From: Kiritimatiellia bacterium
Lineage (GTDB): Bacteria; Verrucomicrobiota; Kiritimatiellia; RFP12; UBA1067
Direction: 5' to 3'
Assembly: GCA_017652705.1 (NCBI GenBank)
Contig: JAGCAM010000043.1
Span: 1 to 41,699, forward strand
DNA length: 41,699 nucleotides
The notes under the pieces are model-generated. The model searched no databases and had not been told where the DNA came from. It worked only from the letters and a program-made list of their open reading frames with translations. The translations under genes and the position numbers were made by a program. Positions 2,008-28,782 of this stretch are shown here, piece by piece; position 1 is the stretch's first letter, and the number at the start of each line of letters is the position of its first letter.

Positions 2008-2670
2008 ATGAAATCCCGTCTGCCGTTTCCGATACTCCATGAAGATTCCGATTTGATCGTAATCGACAAGCCGGCGGGCATGCTGACGACGCGCACGCGG
2101 GCGAAAGAAACCAGTACGGCGGAGGAACGTCTCAACGACTATGTGCGCAAGGGTCAGCGCCGGAGCCGCCGCCGGGTGTGGCTGGTGCACCGTCTCGACC
2201 GCGGCACGAGCGGCGTGATGATGTTCGCGAAGAGCGAAGCGGTGGCGGAGCGGTTCCGTTCCGCCTGGAGCGAACTCACCGAAAAGACGTATCTGGCGGT
2301 CGTCGAAGGGGATCCGGGCGGGGGCGGCGTTTTCGAGTCTTATCTGCGTGACGACGAGCGGACAATGAAGGTGCGGAGTGTGAAAGATTCCCGTTGCGGC
2401 AAGTTCGCGCGCACGGAATGGAGGAAGCTTTCGGAGCGCAAAGGTTTCACGCTGGTGGAGGTGGCGCTGAAGTCTGGGCGGAAGAACCAGATAAGGGTGC
2501 ATTTCAGCGAGGCGGGGCATCCGGTGGCGGGCGACGTGAAATACGGTGCGCGCGCCGCGCCGAGGCTTTTTCTGCATTCGGCGAGGCTCAGGTTCAGACA
2601 TCCGGGCACCGGCGAATGGATGGAATTCGATTCGCCGGCCGAATTCGACTGGAGGGGGGAGACGCGGTGA
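2008..2670 (+). CDS. RluA-family RNA pseudouridine synthase
   Basis: 220 aa. Isomerises uridine to pseudouridine in rRNA or tRNA. The RluA catalytic motif HRLDRGTSG is at residues 61-69 with the catalytic Asp at 64. The N-terminal DLIVIDKPAGML segment and the C-terminal GRKNQIRVHF and GHPVAGDVKYG motifs are also typical. There is no N-terminal S4 domain, as in the RluA/RluC-catalytic-only subgroup. The target site cannot be predicted. The gene starts 7 nt downstream of the tRNA 3' CCA with no Shine-Dalgarno sequence in that gap, so it is probably co-transcribed with the tRNA. Its stop overlaps the GTG start of the next gene (GTGA). Confidence 0.9.
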   Translation: MKSRLPFPILHEDSDLIVIDKPAGMLTTRTRAKETSTAEERLNDYVRKGQRRSRRRVWLVHRLDRGTSGVMMFAKSEAVAERFRSAWSELTEKTYLAVVEGDPGGGGVFESYLRDDERTMKVRSVKDSRCGKFARTEWRKLSERKGFTLVEVALKSGRKNQIRVHFSEAGHPVAGDVKYGARAAPRLFLHSARLRFRHPGTGEWMEFDSPAEFDWRGETR

Positions 2671-3335
2671 ACGCGTTGTTTTTCGACATCGACGGCACGC
2701 TATTCGACACGAAGGCCGATCTGGCGGCCACGGTGAACCACGCGCGGCGCGATCTGGGGCTGGCCGAGTGGCCTGAAGACCGGATCGTCGCCAATGTCGG
2801 GCGCGGGGCGAAACACCTGCTGGTCAACAGCGTGCCTGAATGTCTCGGACCGGAGGCGTCAATGCCGCGGGGGTACGAGGAGCTCCGCGCGATTTTTCTC
2901 GGGCGGTACGCCGAACACTGCTGCGAGCGGGTGGCGCCGTACCCCGGGGTGCGGCGGACGCTGGACGAGCTGCGCGACCGCGGCTGGCTGATGGGGGTCA
3001 ACACCAACAAGCCGAACTTCGCGGTGAAAATGATTCTCGAGAAGTTCGGTTTCACGCGGTATTTCGGTTCGGCGGTGGTGGCCGGCGGCGACGGTTTCGA
3101 ACTCAAGCCGAGTGCGCAGCCGCTGCACGAGTGCGCTTCGCGCCTGCGTGGGCACCGGCTTTCACCGCAGGACTGGATGGTCGGCGACAACTGGACGGAC
3201 ATGCAGTGCGCGTCGGCGGCCGGGATAAAAGGCGCGTTCTGCACTTTCGGCTTCGGCCAACTCCAGGGGGCGCGGTTCAACGTGAAAATCGGGCGGATCG
3301 AAGAATTGCTGCGCCACTTGAAAGCAGAGGACTGA
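2667..3335 (+). CDS. gph: HAD-family phosphoglycolate phosphatase-like hydrolase
   Basis: 222 aa. HAD phosphatase of the Gph type, which hydrolyses 2-phosphoglycolate. Motif I is DIDGTLFD (Asp7 nucleophile, Asp9), motif II lies in GVNTNKP, the motif III lysine is in LKPSAQPL, and motif IV is VGDNWTDM. A helical cap domain (about 17-85) follows motif I. The GTG start is favoured: a GGAGGGGGGA Shine-Dalgarno sequence at 2651-2660 lies 6 nt upstream, and the GTGA overlap couples it to the pseudouridine synthase. Relatives act on other small phosphomonoesters, so the exact substrate is inferred. Confidence 0.8.
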   Translation: MNALFFDIDGTLFDTKADLAATVNHARRDLGLAEWPEDRIVANVGRGAKHLLVNSVPECLGPEASMPRGYEELRAIFLGRYAEHCCERVAPYPGVRRTLDELRDRGWLMGVNTNKPNFAVKMILEKFGFTRYFGSAVVAGGDGFELKPSAQPLHECASRLRGHRLSPQDWMVGDNWTDMQCASAAGIKGAFCTFGFGQLQGARFNVKIGRIEELLRHLKAED

Positions 3336-3348
3336 ATTTGATATAATA
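3319..3348 (+). promoter_or_regulatory. Promoter of rpmH operon
   Basis: TTGAAA (3319-3324), 18-bp spacer, TATAAT (3343-3348) with the extended TGA in front. The predicted start near 3355 gives a leader of about 25 nt containing GAAAGG (3365-3370), so this mRNA is leadered. The -35 overlaps the end of the upstream gph gene. Confidence 0.8.
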
Positions 3349-3379
3349 CACCGAAATTTCAGTTGAAAGGAAGACAATC

Positions 3380-3517
3380 ATGAAGATGACATGGCAGCCG
3401 TCGAGGATCAAGCGTAAACGCAAGATCGGTTACCGCGCCCGCAAGGCGACGAAAGGAGGGCGCAAAGTGCTTGCGTCTCGCCGCGCCAAGGGGCGCAAGC
3501 GCCTTACGCAGGTATAA
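3380..3517 (+). CDS. rpmH: 50S ribosomal protein L34
   Basis: 45 aa, very basic. It matches the L34 pattern throughout: [12 protein letters not shown] at the N-terminus, then [12 protein letters not shown], then [11 protein letters not shown]34 binds 23S rRNA in the large subunit. ATG 3380 gives the usual two-residue lead before the T-W/F-QPS motif; the ATG two codons later is less likely. GAAAGG at 3365-3370 is the ribosome binding site. rpmH-rnpA-yidD-yidC is the classic conserved order. Confidence 0.97.
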
Positions 3518-3527
3518 GGTAGCTTTG

Positions 3528-3860
3528 ATGTCCACGCGACTCCCCGGGGCGAGGTACAGGCGTATCTTCGACCGGGGGCGTTCCGTAAAGGGACGTCTCC
3601 TGGCGGCGTGGTATCTTGAATCGCCGGACGCCGACCGCATGGCCGGCGTCGTCGTTTCAAAGCGGAGTTTCCACGACGCGGTGGCGCGCAACCGCGCCAA
3701 GCGGCTGATGCGCGAGGCGTTCAGGCTGCTGGTCAAAGCAGGTTGCATGCCGGAGAATACGGAGTGGGTTTTCGTGGCGAGGAGCGCGATGGGCGGCAAG
3801 AAATGCTCCGATGTGGCTGAGGAGATGAAATGGTGCGCAAGGCGCTTGTCGCGGCGGTGA
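3528..3860 (+). CDS. rnpA: Ribonuclease P protein component
   Basis: 110 aa. Protein subunit that helps RNase P RNA bind and cleave the 5' leader of pre-tRNA. The diagnostic RNR motif is clear (ARNRAKRLMREAFR, about residues 54-67), preceded by the SKRSF strand. ATG 3528 lies 10 nt after the rpmH stop with AAGG (3516-3519) upstream. The open frame reaches further upstream inside rpmH, but that part has no family similarity. The 3' end overlaps yidD by 31 nt. Confidence 0.95.
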   Translation: MSTRLPGARYRRIFDRGRSVKGRLLAAWYLESPDADRMAGVVVSKRSFHDAVARNRAKRLMREAFRLLVKAGCMPENTEWVFVARSAMGGKKCSDVAEEMKWCARRLSRR

Positions 3861-4084
3861 GGGGATACCAGGTCGTGCTCGGCCCGTCGATGGGCGGGGT
3901 GTGCCGGTTCGAGCCGAGTTGTTCGAATTACATGATCGAGGCGCTCAACTCGCACGGGGCGGTGAAGGGTCTGCTGCTGGGGCTTTGGCGGTTGCTGCGG
4001 TGCCACCCGTTCGGCGGGTACGGGTACGATCCGGTGCCGCCGAAAGGGCGGTGGAAAAACGATTTTGAGAGGGACGCTAAATGA
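3830..4084 (+). CDS. yidD: Membrane protein insertion efficiency factor YidD
   Basis: 84 aa. Small membrane-associated protein that assists YidC/Sec-dependent insertion of inner-membrane proteins. It has the family signatures: GYQVVLGP at the N-terminus, CRFEPSCSNYMIEAL, and CHPFGGYGYDPVP. It starts inside the end of rnpA and ends in an ATGA overlap with yidC, so translation of the three genes is probably coupled. Confidence 0.96.
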   Translation: MVRKALVAAVRGYQVVLGPSMGGVCRFEPSCSNYMIEALNSHGAVKGLLLGLWRLLRCHPFGGYGYDPVPPKGRWKNDFERDAK

Positions 4085-5838
4085 ACAAGACGGAAAAACT
4101 GATTTCTTTGCTGCTGGGCGCGGTTCTGGTCTGGTATCTCTTCAGCGAGAGCAACCGCGCCAAGCGGGAGGCGGCGAATCGCCCGCAGCCGCCGCAGTCG
4201 GTGTCGACCAATGCGGCGGCGGTTCCGCCGGCGGGGGGGACGGCGGCGGTCGCCGAAAAAGCGGCGGTCGCGGCGGAAGCCGCCGCGAAAGAGCCGCCGG
4301 TCGAAATGCACGACACGTTCATTTCGATTTCCAACGCCGACGAAGTGGTGACTTTCGCGGCCAACGAGCGGGGGGCGTCCGTGAAGAGCGTTACGCTGCT
4401 CGGCTACGCGCGCGGCGCCGGCGCGGTGTCGGCGGAAAATCCGCCGGTGGAACTTGATTTCGGCGAGAGCGGCGGGAGGGCGCTTGAACTGCGCGGCGTC
4501 GCCGGGCCGGCCGAGGGCGAGAAGGCCGAGTTCTTCGCCGATTCGCCGACGAGCGTAGTCTACCGCACTTCGCGCATGACGCGGCGCTTCTCGTTGGCGG
4601 GGGGCTACGTGATCGCGATGGAAGAGACGTTCGCCGCCACCGGCGGGGCGCACACCGTCGGCATCGGGTGCATGGGCATGGGCAGTTCGAAGAACGATCT
4701 GCTTTCGGTGGACAGCATGGCGCTCGACGCCGGCAAGGGCAAACCCGGGGTCATCCACCACGGCGACGATGATTCGCCGCTCAAGCCGTACCTTGTAGGC
4801 GGTCTGGCCGGCGGCTGCAGCGGCGCGAAAAACGCGGCGGGCATGCCGCGGTCGGTGAAAGTCGGGTATCCGGGCGCGCAGACATGGCTTGCCGCCAAGA
4901 ACAGGTTCTTCGTGGTTGCGCTCGCTTCGTGCGACCAGCTGAACGGAGGTTTCAGCGCAGTGATCGACCGCGACACCGCCAAAAGCGCCTATGCGCCGGA
5001 GAGACTGTCGGCGGCGGTTGAATTCGGGGAGCTGCCGCGCAGACGGTCGGCGGTATTCTACGCCGGGCCGAAGAAACAGCATCTGCTCTGGAATCTCGGC
5101 ATGAAGGACGTCATGGAGTTCGGCATGTGGCGGTGGCTCTGCTACCCCCTGGTGTGGGTGCTCAACCTGTTCAACGATTTAATACCCAACTACGGCGTGG
5201 CGATAATTCTGCTGACGATTCTCGTGAGGATCATGTTCTGGCCGCTCACCCGCAAGTCGACGGAGGGCATGAAGAAGATGCAGGAAATCCAGCCCCTCAT
5301 GAAGGAACTGCAGAAGAAATTCAAGGACAATCCCCAGCGGCTGCAGCAGGAGACCTGGGCGCTCTACAAGGAGAAGAAGGTCAATCCGCTGAGTTCCTGT
5401 CTGCCGATGCTCATACAGATACCGGTGTTCATCGCCCTGTTCAACGTGCTGCGGTCGGCGGTGGAGCTGCGGTACGCGCCGTTTCTGTGGATCGGGGATC
5501 TGTCGGAGCCGGAAGCGCTCTTCGCGGACTGGTTCCCTTTCGGGGGGCTGAATCTGCTGCCGATACTGATGGCGGTAACGACGGCGCTGCAGAGCGCGTT
5601 CACCCCGACCTCCGGCGACGCGAAGCAGCAGCGGATGATGATGATCTTCATGCCGGCGATGATGCTGGTGATGTTTTACTCGTTTCCGTCGGCGCTTTCG
5701 CTGTACTGGTTCCTGTCGAACATCTTTTCGATCGTGCAGATGTGGCTGATCCGCCGCGAAGCCGCGAAGAAGCAGAATGCCGCGTCGCCCGAGATCATCG
5801 AGCCGGTGCAGACGCGGCAGATGCGCCGGCACCGGTGA
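4081..5838 (+). CDS. yidC: Membrane protein insertase YidC
   Basis: 585 aa, the long Gram-negative form. It has an N-terminal membrane anchor (about 7-22), a low-complexity Pro/Ala linker, a large periplasmic P1 beta-domain (about 70-330), and the conserved insertase core (about 350-565) with several transmembrane segments. The core carries the hydrophilic-groove arginine in ILVRIMFWPLTRKS, followed by the coiled cytoplasmic helical hairpin (MKKMQEIQPLMKELQKKF). The C-terminus is basic. The ATGA overlap with yidD and conserved order support the call. Confidence 0.97.
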   Translation: MNKTEKLISLLLGAVLVWYLFSESNRAKREAANRPQPPQSVSTNAAAVPPAGGTAAVAEKAAVAAEAAAKEPPVEMHDTFISISNADEVVTFAANERGASVKSVTLLGYARGAGAVSAENPPVELDFGESGGRALELRGVAGPAEGEKAEFFADSPTSVVYRTSRMTRRFSLAGGYVIAMEETFAATGGAHTVGIGCMGMGSSKNDLLSVDSMALDAGKGKPGVIHHGDDDSPLKPYLVGGLAGGCSGAKNAAGMPRSVKVGYPGAQTWLAAKNRFFVVALASCDQLNGGFSAVIDRDTAKSAYAPERLSAAVEFGELPRRRSAVFYAGPKKQHLLWNLGMKDVMEFGMWRWLCYPLVWVLNLFNDLIPNYGVAIILLTILVRIMFWPLTRKSTEGMKKMQEIQPLMKELQKKFKDNPQRLQQETWALYKEKKVNPLSSCLPMLIQIPVFIALFNVLRSAVELRYAPFLWIGDLSEPEALFADWFPFGGLNLLPILMAVTTALQSAFTPTSGDAKQQRMMMIFMPAMMLVMFYSFPSALSLYWFLSNIFSIVQMWLIRREAAKKQNAASPEIIEPVQTRQMRRHR

Positions 5839-25348: not shown

Positions 25349-25429
25349 CGCCGGGGAGGAAGTGATGCCGGTCGATCCGCGGAGTACGGCGCAGGCGATG
25401 TTTTTAGAGTGTTGCAAAAGGAACCCTGC
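25349..25429 (+). other. Intergenic gap before the fused esterase gene
   Basis: 81 bp between the pseudogene stop and the next ATG. It holds an A/G-rich ribosome binding site (AAAAGGA, ending near 25422). I see no convincing -10 of the TGRTATAAT type and no hairpin. The downstream gene may depend on the promoter at 24290. Confidence 0.4.
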
Positions 25430-27598
25430 ATGAAAAAGGCAATCCCGTCACTGGCCGTGCTTTTGGCCGTTTCGTGTGTATGCGCGGCGACGCTCGACCC
25501 GTCGCTGCAGAACGTCTGGTTGAGAGGCGTCACAGACAAAAACGCCCTCCTCTACAAACCCGGCGAGGAGATGAAGTTCACCATCGAAATGCTCGGCGCC
25601 ACCAACGCCATACCTGAAAACGCGTGGGAACTCTGGCTGCAGCGCACCGGCGACGACGGCAAAAAGGAGGAATTCTCCCTTCCCCTGCCGCTGAAGGACG
25701 GCAAACTCGTTTACAAGACGAAACTCGACTGCAGCGGATTCGTGCGCGTATATGCGCAGGTGTTCGCCGCGGGCCGCAAATTCGTCCCCCGCACCGGCAA
25801 GGCATGGACCGGTGGACGGATATGTTTCGACGGCGGCGCCGGGGTTAACGTGCACACGCTGCAGGGGCTGCCAGAACCGGACGACTTCGACAAGTTCTGG
25901 GCGAAGCGCCGTGCCCGTCTTGACGCGCTGCCGATCAAAGCCGACGTCAAGGCGGTCAGTTCCAACGAAAACGCCGTCTGCCACGCCGTGAGCGTGAATT
26001 GCGCTGGGGGGCGTCCGTCGACTTTCTACATGTCGGTGCCGGTGAAATGCCTGCAGGGCGGGGAGAAGGTCCCCGCGCTCGTCACGTTCTGGGGATATTC
26101 TGACGCCCGCAAGCCGTCGCGCTCCGGTCTCGACGCCGATCGCATTCTCGTCGATTTCAACCCGCACGGATTCGAGCTCGAGCGCGAAGAAGAGTATTAC
26201 AGCGAGTTCTACCGGTCGATCGCCTCCGGCCGGAGCAACCCAGCGGTCACGAATGCGAAATACCCCGCCAGTTACGCTTTCGACTATGAAAAGAACATGA
26301 ACGCCGACACCGCCTACTTCGCGGGGATGTCGTGGAGGCTTTTGCGCGCTCTGCAGTACGTCAAATCGACGCCTTGGTGGAACGGCCGTGACCTTTCGGT
26401 GAAGGGCGGCAGCCAGGGCGGGTTGCAGTCGATCTGGGCGGCCGGCCTGGACAAGGACGTCACGGACTGCGAATCGGTCGTGACCTGGTGCTGCGATTTC
26501 GGCGGAACCAAATTCAACCGTCTGCGCGGCGGCTGGTACATCCGTCATACGCGGGCGCTCGACTATTACGATCCGGTCAACGTCGCAAAGCGCATACCGA
26601 AGACGTGCCGGGTGACGATTTCCCGCGCCGGGCTCGGCGATTACACGTGTCCGCCGTCGGGGCTGGCCTGCCTTTACAACAGCATAACCGCGCCGAAGAA
26701 GATCGTCTGGTACCAGGGTTCCGAGCACGGGTACGTGGCACCGCCGGTGCCTGATGAAACGTTCACTTTCGAGTCCGGGGCGGGAGAGGGTCCGGTGACT
26801 TTCGAAAAGCCGATCTGCGACGCCGAAATAGACATGGCGGCGGCGCCGCGCGATCCGGCCGAGAAGAAGGCGGACGCGCCTTCGGGCATGAAACTCGTGC
26901 TGCTGGTCGGTCAGAGCAACATGGCCGGCAGGGCGGACGTGCCGCCGGAGTACCGGCGGCCGCTGAAAGGCGCCTTTAAACTCAACCGCGACGATGAATG
27001 GGTCGAGGCGACGTCGCCGCTGCACTTCGACCGCTCCTTCGCCGGCGTCGGTCCCGGGGATGAATTCGTGCGGCGCTATCTCGCCGACCACCCCGGCGAA
27101 ACCGTGGGCATCGTGCCTTGCGCCGTGGGCGGCTCGCGTCTCGCCACGTGGGATCCCGACGGCGCAGGCAGGAGCGGCGCCAATTTCCGCCGCGCGCTCC
27201 AGCGCGTGAAAAAAGCCGGGGAGAAAGGTGATTTCATCGCCATTCTCTGGCATCAGGGCGAGTCGGACGCGACGGCCCGCAGATTTGAAGAGAACCGCGT
27301 GTACTATCCGGAGCGTTTCGCGGCGATGGCGGCGGCGTTCCGCCGCGAAACCGGAGACGTGCCGGTGCTGATCGGCGAAATCGGGAGGTTTCTCGCTGTC
27401 AACGCCGAACTGATGAACCCCATCCTCAACGCGCTGCCTGCATCGGTGCCGCGCTCGGCGTGCGTTTCGTCGGAAGGTCTCACCGACAAGGGAGACAAGA
27501 TACATTTCAGTTTCAACGGTGCAAAGGGGCTCGGCGCACGGTACTATGAAGCGTACCGCAAAATGGAGAAACGAGCGACCGGCAGGAAGGACGGGTGA
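25430..27598 (+). CDS. Exported two-domain carbohydrate esterase (CE7 + SGNH/CE6-like)
   Basis: 722 aa. Signal peptide about 1-19. A beta-sandwich-like N-terminal region (about 25-135) leads into a CE7 acetyl-xylan-esterase alpha/beta-hydrolase domain (about 148-440): PEPDDFDKFW entry motif, nucleophile elbow GGSQGG with Ser328, likely Asp404 (GLGDYTCPPSG) and His433 (SEHGY). After a linker, residues 486-715 form an SGNH esterase of the SASA/CE6 type: GQSNMAG (Ser496), a CAVGGSRLATW block, WHQGESDA, and a terminal KIHFSFNGAKGLG holding the catalytic His region. Both families remove O-acetyl groups from polysaccharides or sialic acids. The ATG at 25430 has AAAAGGA upstream; an in-frame GTG at 25409 would spoil the signal peptide. 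The GTGA overlap joins the next gene. Confidence 0.85.
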   Translation: MKKAIPSLAVLLAVSCVCAATLDPSLQNVWLRGVTDKNALLYKPGEEMKFTIEMLGATNAIPENAWELWLQRTGDDGKKEEFSLPLPLKDGKLVYKTKLDCSGFVRVYAQVFAAGRKFVPRTGKAWTGGRICFDGGAGVNVHTLQGLPEPDDFDKFWAKRRARLDALPIKADVKAVSSNENAVCHAVSVNCAGGRPSTFYMSVPVKCLQGGEKVPALVTFWGYSDARKPSRSGLDADRILVDFNPHGFELEREEEYYSEFYRSIASGRSNPAVTNAKYPASYAFDYEKNMNADTAYFAGMSWRLLRALQYVKSTPWWNGRDLSVKGGSQGGLQSIWAAGLDKDVTDCESVVTWCCDFGGTKFNRLRGGWYIRHTRALDYYDPVNVAKRIPKTCRVTISRAGLGDYTCPPSGLACLYNSITAPKKIVWYQGSEHGYVAPPVPDETFTFESGAGEGPVTFEKPICDAEIDMAAAPRDPAEKKADAPSGMKLVLLVGQSNMAGRADVPPEYRRPLKGAFKLNRDDEWVEATSPLHFDRSFAGVGPGDEFVRRYLADHPGETVGIVPCAVGGSRLATWDPDGAGRSGANFRRALQRVKKAGEKGDFIAILWHQGESDATARRFEENRVYYPERFAAMAAAFRRETGDVPVLIGEIGRFLAVNAELMNPILNALPASVPRSACVSSEGLTDKGDKIHFSFNGAKGLGARYYEAYRKMEKRATGRKDG

Positions 27599-28782
27599 CG
27601 AAGATGAAGAGACGGCTTTTCGCCGCGGCGCTTTGTTCGGCATGGGCGCTTTCAGCCGCTGATCTGCGTGAAGGGGCGTTTTATCCGTTCGCGGAAATAC
27701 CGGCTGAGCTGATCGCCCGTTCGCCGGCCGGCGCACCGGTGACTTTTTCGCTGGAGGAGAACATGACCACCGGTTACGGGTGGGAATTCGACAGCAACAC
27801 CAACGAATGTTCGGTCGTAGCGGATCATGTCGGGGGCGCATCCTCCCTCGCCGGCGCGCCTGGCAGAATGAAGGTGACGGTGAAAAGCCTCGTGCAGACC
27901 CCGGTCCGCGTCGAGTTCTTCTACCGGAGGCCGTGGGAGAAGAACGCCGCACCGGCCAGAAAGATGCGGTTCCTGCTTTACACCGCGGCGGGAAAGACGT
28001 CGGGGGCGAATTATCCGGATGGAGCGGTGCTGCGGCTGCTTAAAGCGGAATGCGCCGCGCGCGGCATCGTCATCACCGACTGGCACCTTCACATCCGCGG
28101 CGGCATGACGCCCGAAATGGCGGCGGAGCGCGAGCGGGCCTCGGGCATACGGTCGGGGGCGATCGAGAATCACGGGCGGGAGTGGGAGATAAACGACAAC
28201 GCGCGGCTGCGGGAATTCGCGGCGCGGGTGAAGGCGGTGAAATCGGACGGACACCGGCTTCCAGCGGGCATACAGGTGAACGACCGGGACTGGTTCCGCC
28301 AGATCGACCCGACGACGCGCGCGGAGTTCGACTACATTCTCGCCGACACGATGATCATGGGCAGGCTTCCCGGAGGGCGTGACAACCGGCTGTGGCTGGT
28401 AAAGAAAATCAACGACCCCGACGCATGGATGGAACGGTACGTGGAGCATAATCTTCGCATTCTTGACGAACCGATCGACATACTGGCTAACCCTACATAC
28501 CTGCCGGCGCCGCTGGCGGGCGATTACGACCGGCTCTGGACGGACGAGCGCATGCGGCGGGTGATCAAGAAGGCCGTGTCGCGCGGCGTGGCGATCGAGA
28601 TACAGGCCGAGTCTCCGTATCCGCGTCCCAAGTTTCTCCGGATGGCGAAGGCGATGGGCGCGAAGTTCTCTTTCGGCACGAACAACTTCGACACGAGGCC
28701 GAAAGACCTTTCGAGGTGGCTTGAAGCGATAACGTGGCTGGATCTGCGCGCAGGGGACATCTGGTCGCCCGGCATGAGATAA
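27595..28782 (+). CDS. Exported chagasin-like (I42) inhibitor fused to PHP-type phosphoesterase
   Basis: 395 aa. Signal peptide about 1-22 (RRLFAAALCSAWALSAA). Residues about 35-132 match the chagasin/I42 cysteine-protease-inhibitor fold. The first loop reads NMTTGYGW (56-63; family NPTTGYxW) and the third loop RPWE is at 112-115. Residues about 143-390 match a PHP-family protein common in PVC genomes: DWHLHIRGG (metal ligands H164, H166), 'SGIRSGAIENHGREWEIND', 'FDYILADTMI', 'EPIDILANPTYLP' and 'KFSFGTNNFD'. PHP domains usually hydrolyse phosphoesters. GTG 27595 overlaps the upstream stop (GTGA) with AGGAAGG 4 nt ahead; ATG 27604 is the alternative. The fusion is unusual and its substrate unknown. 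Confidence 0.82.
   Translation: MTKMKRRLFAAALCSAWALSAADLREGAFYPFAEIPAELIARSPAGAPVTFSLEENMTTGYGWEFDSNTNECSVVADHVGGASSLAGAPGRMKVTVKSLVQTPVRVEFFYRRPWEKNAAPARKMRFLLYTAAGKTSGANYPDGAVLRLLKAECAARGIVITDWHLHIRGGMTPEMAAERERASGIRSGAIENHGREWEINDNARLREFAARVKAVKSDGHRLPAGIQVNDRDWFRQIDPTTRAEFDYILADTMIMGRLPGGRDNRLWLVKKINDPDAWMERYVEHNLRILDEPIDILANPTYLPAPLAGDYDRLWTDERMRRVIKKAVSRGVAIEIQAESPYPRPKFLRMAKAMGAKFSFGTNNFDTRPKDLSRWLEAITWLDLRAGDIWSPGMR

Follow-up and report, generated by a model that had tools for sequence, protein, structure and literature searches.

The gene at 27595-28782 of the window, the whole stretch of 41,699 nucleotides analyzed here, encodes a two-domain protein in which an I42 (chagasin) domain precedes a PHP-type barrel with an altered metal site. 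Our leading, still tentative reading is that the protein is an exported barrel that acts on or binds carbohydrate, accompanied by an accessory I42 domain that was acquired once and that possibly inhibits papain-like proteases in the window protein. Both domains come from known superfamilies. What is new is a barrel subfamily for which there is no Pfam model, together with its pairing with I42. The first-pass annotation had called the pairing unusual, and the literature searched, which was not exhaustive, yielded no paper on an I42-PHP fusion or on PHP domains tied to glycan degradation.

27595..28782, + strand: whole two-domain gene, 395 amino acids from the GTG at 27595 or 392 amino acids from the ATG at 27604.
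27604..27657, + strand: probable signal peptide MKRRLFAAALCSAWALSA, with a basic start, a hydrophobic core and an A-x-A-like end.

The likelier start of the open reading frame is the in-frame ATG at 27604, which gives the signal-peptide-like N-terminus MKRRLFAAALCSAWALSAADL; the stretch AGGAAGGA lies immediately upstream of this ATG. Judged from its N-terminal sequence, the two-domain protein is probably exported, as had been proposed. The gene upstream (25409-27598, + strand) joins an acetyl xylan esterase of the AXE1 type to a SASA (sialic acid acetylesterase-like) domain, and there is an overlap between its stop codon and the GTG at the start of the gene under study. A conserved operon was rejected since the loci of relatives do not share the neighbors of the window gene. 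An exception to this lack of shared neighbors is a solute-binding-protein-like gene that adjoins the barrel gene in L096/L023.

Homologs spanning the full length of the window protein were found in 12 other genomes of its family. The full two-domain chain is present in at least 13 genomes of that family, the window's own among them; about 25 carry the C-terminal domain only and several the I42 domain only. A match to some part of the protein is present in 59 of the 115 genomes. The scan for the same architecture suggested in the first-pass annotation thus recovered the fusion repeatedly. Because of this recurrence the fusion is neither a product of chance nor an assembly artifact, and a chimera was ruled out by the presence of the same fusion in MAGs of separate projects; in independent MAGs the architecture is found again with 60-72% identity.

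The N-terminal half is defined by the following features.

27727..27963, + strand: I42 (chagasin) domain, residues 45-123, PF09394 Inhibitor_I42.
27760..27783, + strand: inhibitory loop L2, NMTTGYGW, residues 56-63, corresponding to the NPTTG loop of chagasin with Pro replaced by Met.
27925..27945, + strand: inhibitory loop L6, RRPWEKN, residues 111-117, preceded by Tyr and corresponding to the RPW loop of chagasin/ICP.

PF09394 matched residues 45-123 of the window protein with an E-value of 6.6e-11 and 42.8 bits, above the curated cut-off of 27.2. The genome-wide search gave 9.0e-12 for the same domain, the sole I42 domain detected in the assembled genome. A phmmer search against the PDB matched amoebiasin-2, amoebiasin-1, P. 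aeruginosa ICP and chagasin. The AlphaFold2 model of the whole chain, with 12 fusions as input, had a pLDDT of 80, and its predicted beta-sandwich (approximately residues 35-131) superimposed on chagasin (2oul_B) with a Z score of 11.0 and 2.4 Å over 96 residues. The initial assignment to I42 had been made from the motifs NMTTGYGW and RPWE, both of which lie inside the domain, and had been staked on an I42 profile match and a chagasin-like fold; the profile match at 45-123 and the model at 35-131 bear it out. The protein resembles the chagasin/ICP family (MEROPS I42, PF09394) in profile match, predicted fold, signal-like start and the NxTTG, GxPG-like and RPW loops. It differs in that I42 makes up the N-terminal half of a protein with two domains, with sister fusions in which the loops are missing, whereas the characterized I42 members are, to our knowledge, mainly single inhibitors. 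All three chagasin loops are retained in the window protein, as NMTTG (L2), GAPG (L4-like) and RPW (L6); chagasin has GxGG in L4. In chagasin, the P30A substitution changes Ki little (PMC2607524).

To follow the history of the I42 half, we mapped I42 presence and loop loss onto a phylogeny of 63 barrel sequences. The I42 fusions (19/19) all fall within one supported group of 20 rows (98/95). Two changes account for the presence of I42, and on these sequences the best interpretation is a single gain and a single loss (L084). For the loops three changes are required, two of them forced by supported branches; the protease-binding loops were lost in about three lineages while the barrel was conserved. 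Fusions that lack the loops comprise L074 (= L011), L080/L083 (= L012/L014) and six Victivallales sequences; PF09394 no longer matches those tested. L2 (NxTTG) and L6 (RPW) disappeared together in every one of these lineages. L094 (= L013) keeps L2 and has RPG in place of RPW. The Victivallales fusions (L075, L076, L077, L087, L091 and L092) apparently lack both a signal peptide and the loops. The mean pairwise identity is 52.0% for the I42 domain versus 75.9% for the barrel, the I42 value being lower in 66 of 66 pairs. We regard the I42 domain as accessory because of this lower identity and because its history holds one gain, one loss and about three loop-loss lineages.

Deletion of T31-T32 in chagasin leaves the fold in place and raises Ki by hundreds of fold (PMC2607524), and by analogy the loop-less natural variants are most likely non-inhibitory. 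One alternative, possible but unlikely in our estimation, extends this to the window protein itself: the I42 domain would be merely a structural or ligand-binding Ig-like module and its intact loops residual. The faster evolution of the domain relative to the barrel, its persistence in L074, L080/L083 and the six Victivallales fusions after L2 and L6 were gone, and the ability of the shortened chagasin to fold while barely inhibiting (PMC2607524) are consistent with that view. However, L2, the L4-like loop and L6 are jointly intact in nine tree rows over several branches, and drift without constraint would break loops singly. The first-pass annotation had itself mentioned a mere binding module, a description that suits several loop-less relatives; the window copy keeps three loops, and inhibition by it is possible. 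In the reading we prefer, the I42 domain would have joined the barrel in a single event, in the common ancestor of a Kiritimatiellia/Victivallales clade. The copy in the window protein may still inhibit papain-like (C1) cysteine proteases encountered extracellularly, which would shield the chain or its neighbors, and in sister lineages the domain would have decayed into a non-inhibitory Ig-like module. An inhibitor role where the loops persist is suggested by the joint loss of L2 and L6 and by an I42 gene that lies near a papain-like protease gene in genome G059. Chagasin domains in this one clade range naturally from intact to loop-less, and the series can be used to ask when an inhibitor fold becomes a plain structural module.

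In G059 the standalone I42 gene (L158, contig C88, 1120-1599, - strand) lies about 0.7 kb downstream of the papain-like C1 protease gene (2320-4332, - strand), on the same strand and with another short open reading frame between them; the two are a possible inhibitor-protease pair. C1 proteases occur in 53 of the 115 genomes of the family; the search detected none in the genome of the window, whose completeness is only 67.7%. In genome G063 a close relative of the I42 domain (L048, 520-1956, - strand) is joined to another kind of C-terminal region, about 340 amino acids long and with no Pfam match, so the I42 domain itself has also been shuffled. In another family of the phylum, three tandem I42 domains occur in open reading frames of about 420-460 amino acids (G215:C13, G221:C22, G235:C12, G410:C25, G213:C27 and G283:C17).

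The C-terminal half is a predicted PHP barrel.

28036..28779, + strand: variant PHP barrel, residues 148-395, model pLDDT 96, pTM 0.93.

The model of this domain alone was built with 55 relatives. It matched histidinol phosphatase of T. thermophilus (2yxo_B) with a Z score of 20.9 over 226 residues at 2.7 Å, PolX (3au2) with 20.1 and YcdX (1m65) with 18.6. These PHP matches (HisK, PolX and YcdX) span 202-227 residues and clearly outscore the next class of folds. With a Z score of about 13, the RNase P subunit Rpp30, itself PHP-like, is a further match to the model. The corresponding region of the whole-chain model (about 148-395) likewise matches PHP proteins, and hhalign aligned the family profile with YcdX at an E-value of 4e-6. 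The C-terminal part of the window protein by itself had no PHP match in Pfam or NCBIfam. PF02811 was matched by 4 of the 55 relatives, with a best E-value of 1.8e-4. The PHP-like domain of the first-pass annotation is therefore right as to fold, and the profile search it proposed succeeded for these four relatives and failed for the window protein alone. Weak Pfam matches to Autoind_bind and Hydrolase_6 and a PDB match to lysozyme (E 0.25) were dismissed as chance, and Foldseek rows to GH123 and amylases were disregarded as misaligned (rmsd of at least 18 Å). The barrel shares with the PHP superfamily (PF02811: HisK, YcdX and the PHP domain of PolX) seven strands, HxH at strand 1, a conserved Glu at strand 6 and alignable motifs. 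It departs from it in the metal site, in belonging to a probably exported protein and in a family most of whose members have no Pfam match. The comparison of metal sites below uses the computed alignment to YcdX together with the residues that we take to be its metal ligands from its structure.

Five sites carry kept or altered positions of the metal center.

28084..28092, + strand: HxH (H164, H166), PHP metal positions 1 and 2, kept in 55/55 relatives.
28273..28275, + strand: Q227, PHP metal position 5 (normally Glu), Gln in 55/55, aligned to the Glu of GIEAN in YcdX.
28345..28353, + strand: D251-T-M253, with M253 at position 6 (normally His), D and M each 55/55, aligned to A-G-F-H of YcdX.
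28489..28491, + strand: N299, end of barrel strand 5, PHP position 7 (normally His/Cys), Asn in 54/55.
28681..28689, + strand: N363-N364-F365, PHP 'SDxH' motif with positions 8 and 9, N363 and N364 in 55/55, F365 in 45/55.

Metal-binding PHP domains hold three metals with nine ligands, H, H, D/H, H, E, H, C/H, D/N and H (PMC3666897). In the window protein these positions are H164, H166, absent, H193, Q227, M253, N299, N363 and F365. H164, H166 and H193 are thus retained, N363 is a tolerated residue, and positions 3, 5, 6, 7 and 9 are lost, so the protein does not have the nine-ligand set of the PHP metallo-phosphoesterases; three of the five replacements are the (nearly) invariant Q, M and N. 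Position 7 was assigned to N299 by strand order, and hhalign sets the YcdX His opposite the invariant E292 instead; neither is His or Cys. The H193 column has His in only 25 of the 55 relatives. Two Parabacteroides relatives have DAL and DAM at the D251-T-M253 site and otherwise the same pattern, with one Leu for Met. Further residues invariant among the 55 relatives are N192, R231, W233, D251, E292, E335 and N364, and most of these sit at or just past the C-terminal ends of the barrel strands as assigned from the model. We read the pocket formed by H164, H166, N192, Q227, R231, D251, M253, N299, E335, N363 and N364 as rebuilt and metal-poor, not decayed. A single metal could be held at HxH plus D251 or E335.

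There are two other accounts of the barrel. The first makes it a non-catalytic binding or scaffolding domain that brings partners to glycan, a pseudoenzyme like Rpp30 or the PHP domain of E. coli Pol III. The lost metal ligands, the varied N-terminal partners and the match to Rpp30 (Z score of about 13) are in keeping with this account, to which we give a minor share of our belief. Numerous relatives, however, are exported without any partner, and the polar pocket (H, H, N, Q, R, D, N, E, N, N) is (nearly) invariant in 55 diverse members, which suggests chemistry or very specific binding. The PHP domain of Pol III alpha and Rpp30 of RNase P do share with the barrel a PHP fold and an incomplete metal site, but they are structural parts of a polymerase or of RNase P, whereas the window barrel is of an exported type, with strictly conserved new pocket residues and swapped partners. 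The second account, which we consider improbable, takes up the phosphoesterase of the first-pass annotation and sees an active metal-dependent enzyme fused to a cysteine-protease inhibitor. The fold, with histidinol phosphatase as its best match, the HxH in all relatives and H193 in the window protein are what such an enzyme would have. Five of nine metal positions are nevertheless replaced, with Q227, M253 and N299 as (nearly) invariant substitutes, and conservation of H193 does not extend to the relatives. The barrel is probably not a phosphatase because most of the metal-holding residues are lost, and the PHP domain of E. coli Pol III, with five ligands replaced as well, binds no metal (PMC3666897). 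An active trinuclear PHP phosphatase was judged unlikely on the same ground. That the protein is chiefly a protease inhibitor with the barrel as its carrier is very improbable: the loops are intact and C1 proteases are present in about half of the family genomes (53/115), but conservation is stronger in the barrel than in I42, and barrels lacking I42 are common, outside the fusion clade too.

Returning to the reading we prefer, the C-terminal barrel would be the working part, its three-metal phosphoesterase center replaced by a conserved metal-poor pocket, and it would bind or convert a carbohydrate or its breakdown product rather than a phosphate ester. A carbohydrate role is suggested by fusions of the barrel to GH43, GH29 and PF06439, by glycoside hydrolase neighbors and by the upstream AXE1+SASA gene. 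The barrel is fused to GH43 in L015 (PF04616, E 1.5e-41), to a GH29 alpha-L-fucosidase in L038 (E 2e-81) and to a PF06439 3-keto-disaccharide hydrolase in L150 (E 5.9e-36; L042 and L045 were below the cut-off). The neighbors at some barrel loci are GH53, GH20, GH29+SASA, GH29-like and GH2 genes and an HpcH/HpaI aldolase gene, next to unrelated genes, in a hand-picked set. On these sequences the fusions appear to be stronger evidence than the neighbors, the weight of which is lowered by the richness of PVC and Bacteroidota genomes in carbohydrate enzymes. The barrel itself has no glycoside hydrolase, lyase or esterase match in Pfam, such matches being limited to partners and neighbors, and a fusion to a nitroreductase (L016, E 1.9e-17) is at odds with a purely carbohydrate theme. 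The barrel also stands alone, with a signal-like, Tat-like (RRxF) or lipoprotein-like (lipobox) start. A bolder version of our reading, which we hold with clearly less confidence, is that the barrel establishes a new family of PHP-scaffold enzymes with metal-free or single-metal chemistry on carbohydrates or 3-keto-sugar intermediates, to which one rumen/gut clade added a protease inhibitor to survive protease-rich surroundings.

A search with the family profile in a contig collection with one genome per species gave 367 loci related to the C-terminal domain. Among these, the top 80 are mostly MAGs of Kiritimatiellia, Victivallales, Akkermansiaceae, Planctomycetia and Thermoguttaceae (mainly PVC), largely from rumen, gut and lake samples by their record titles. 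In Planctomycetota and Bacteroidota, several proteins with a PF06439 (DUF1080, '3-keto-disaccharide hydrolase') domain end in the same variant PHP barrel, whereas the window protein has I42 as its N-terminal partner. These PF06439 proteins include two more relatives, WP_005861479.1 and WP_121956407.1, in Parabacteroides distasonis records, which are annotated only as a DUF1080 protein and a family 16 glycoside hydrolase. The barrel family is widespread in PVC and Bacteroidota and has no Pfam model; current annotation would miss it or would label it as PHP phosphatase or DUF1080. Its invariant pocket, its swapped partners and its members in cultured Parabacteroides distasonis make the chemistry of the barrel directly testable.

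Fusions of PF06439 with the variant PHP barrel (L149, L150, L151 and L042-L047) branch off deep in the barrel tree, and the pairing is perhaps old. In L142 (3912-5693, + strand) the barrel follows an N-terminal region of about 360 amino acids that has no Pfam match. The Parabacteroides 'plasmid' records (L159, L160) bear lysS, rpe and glmM and are probably mislabeled pieces of chromosome.
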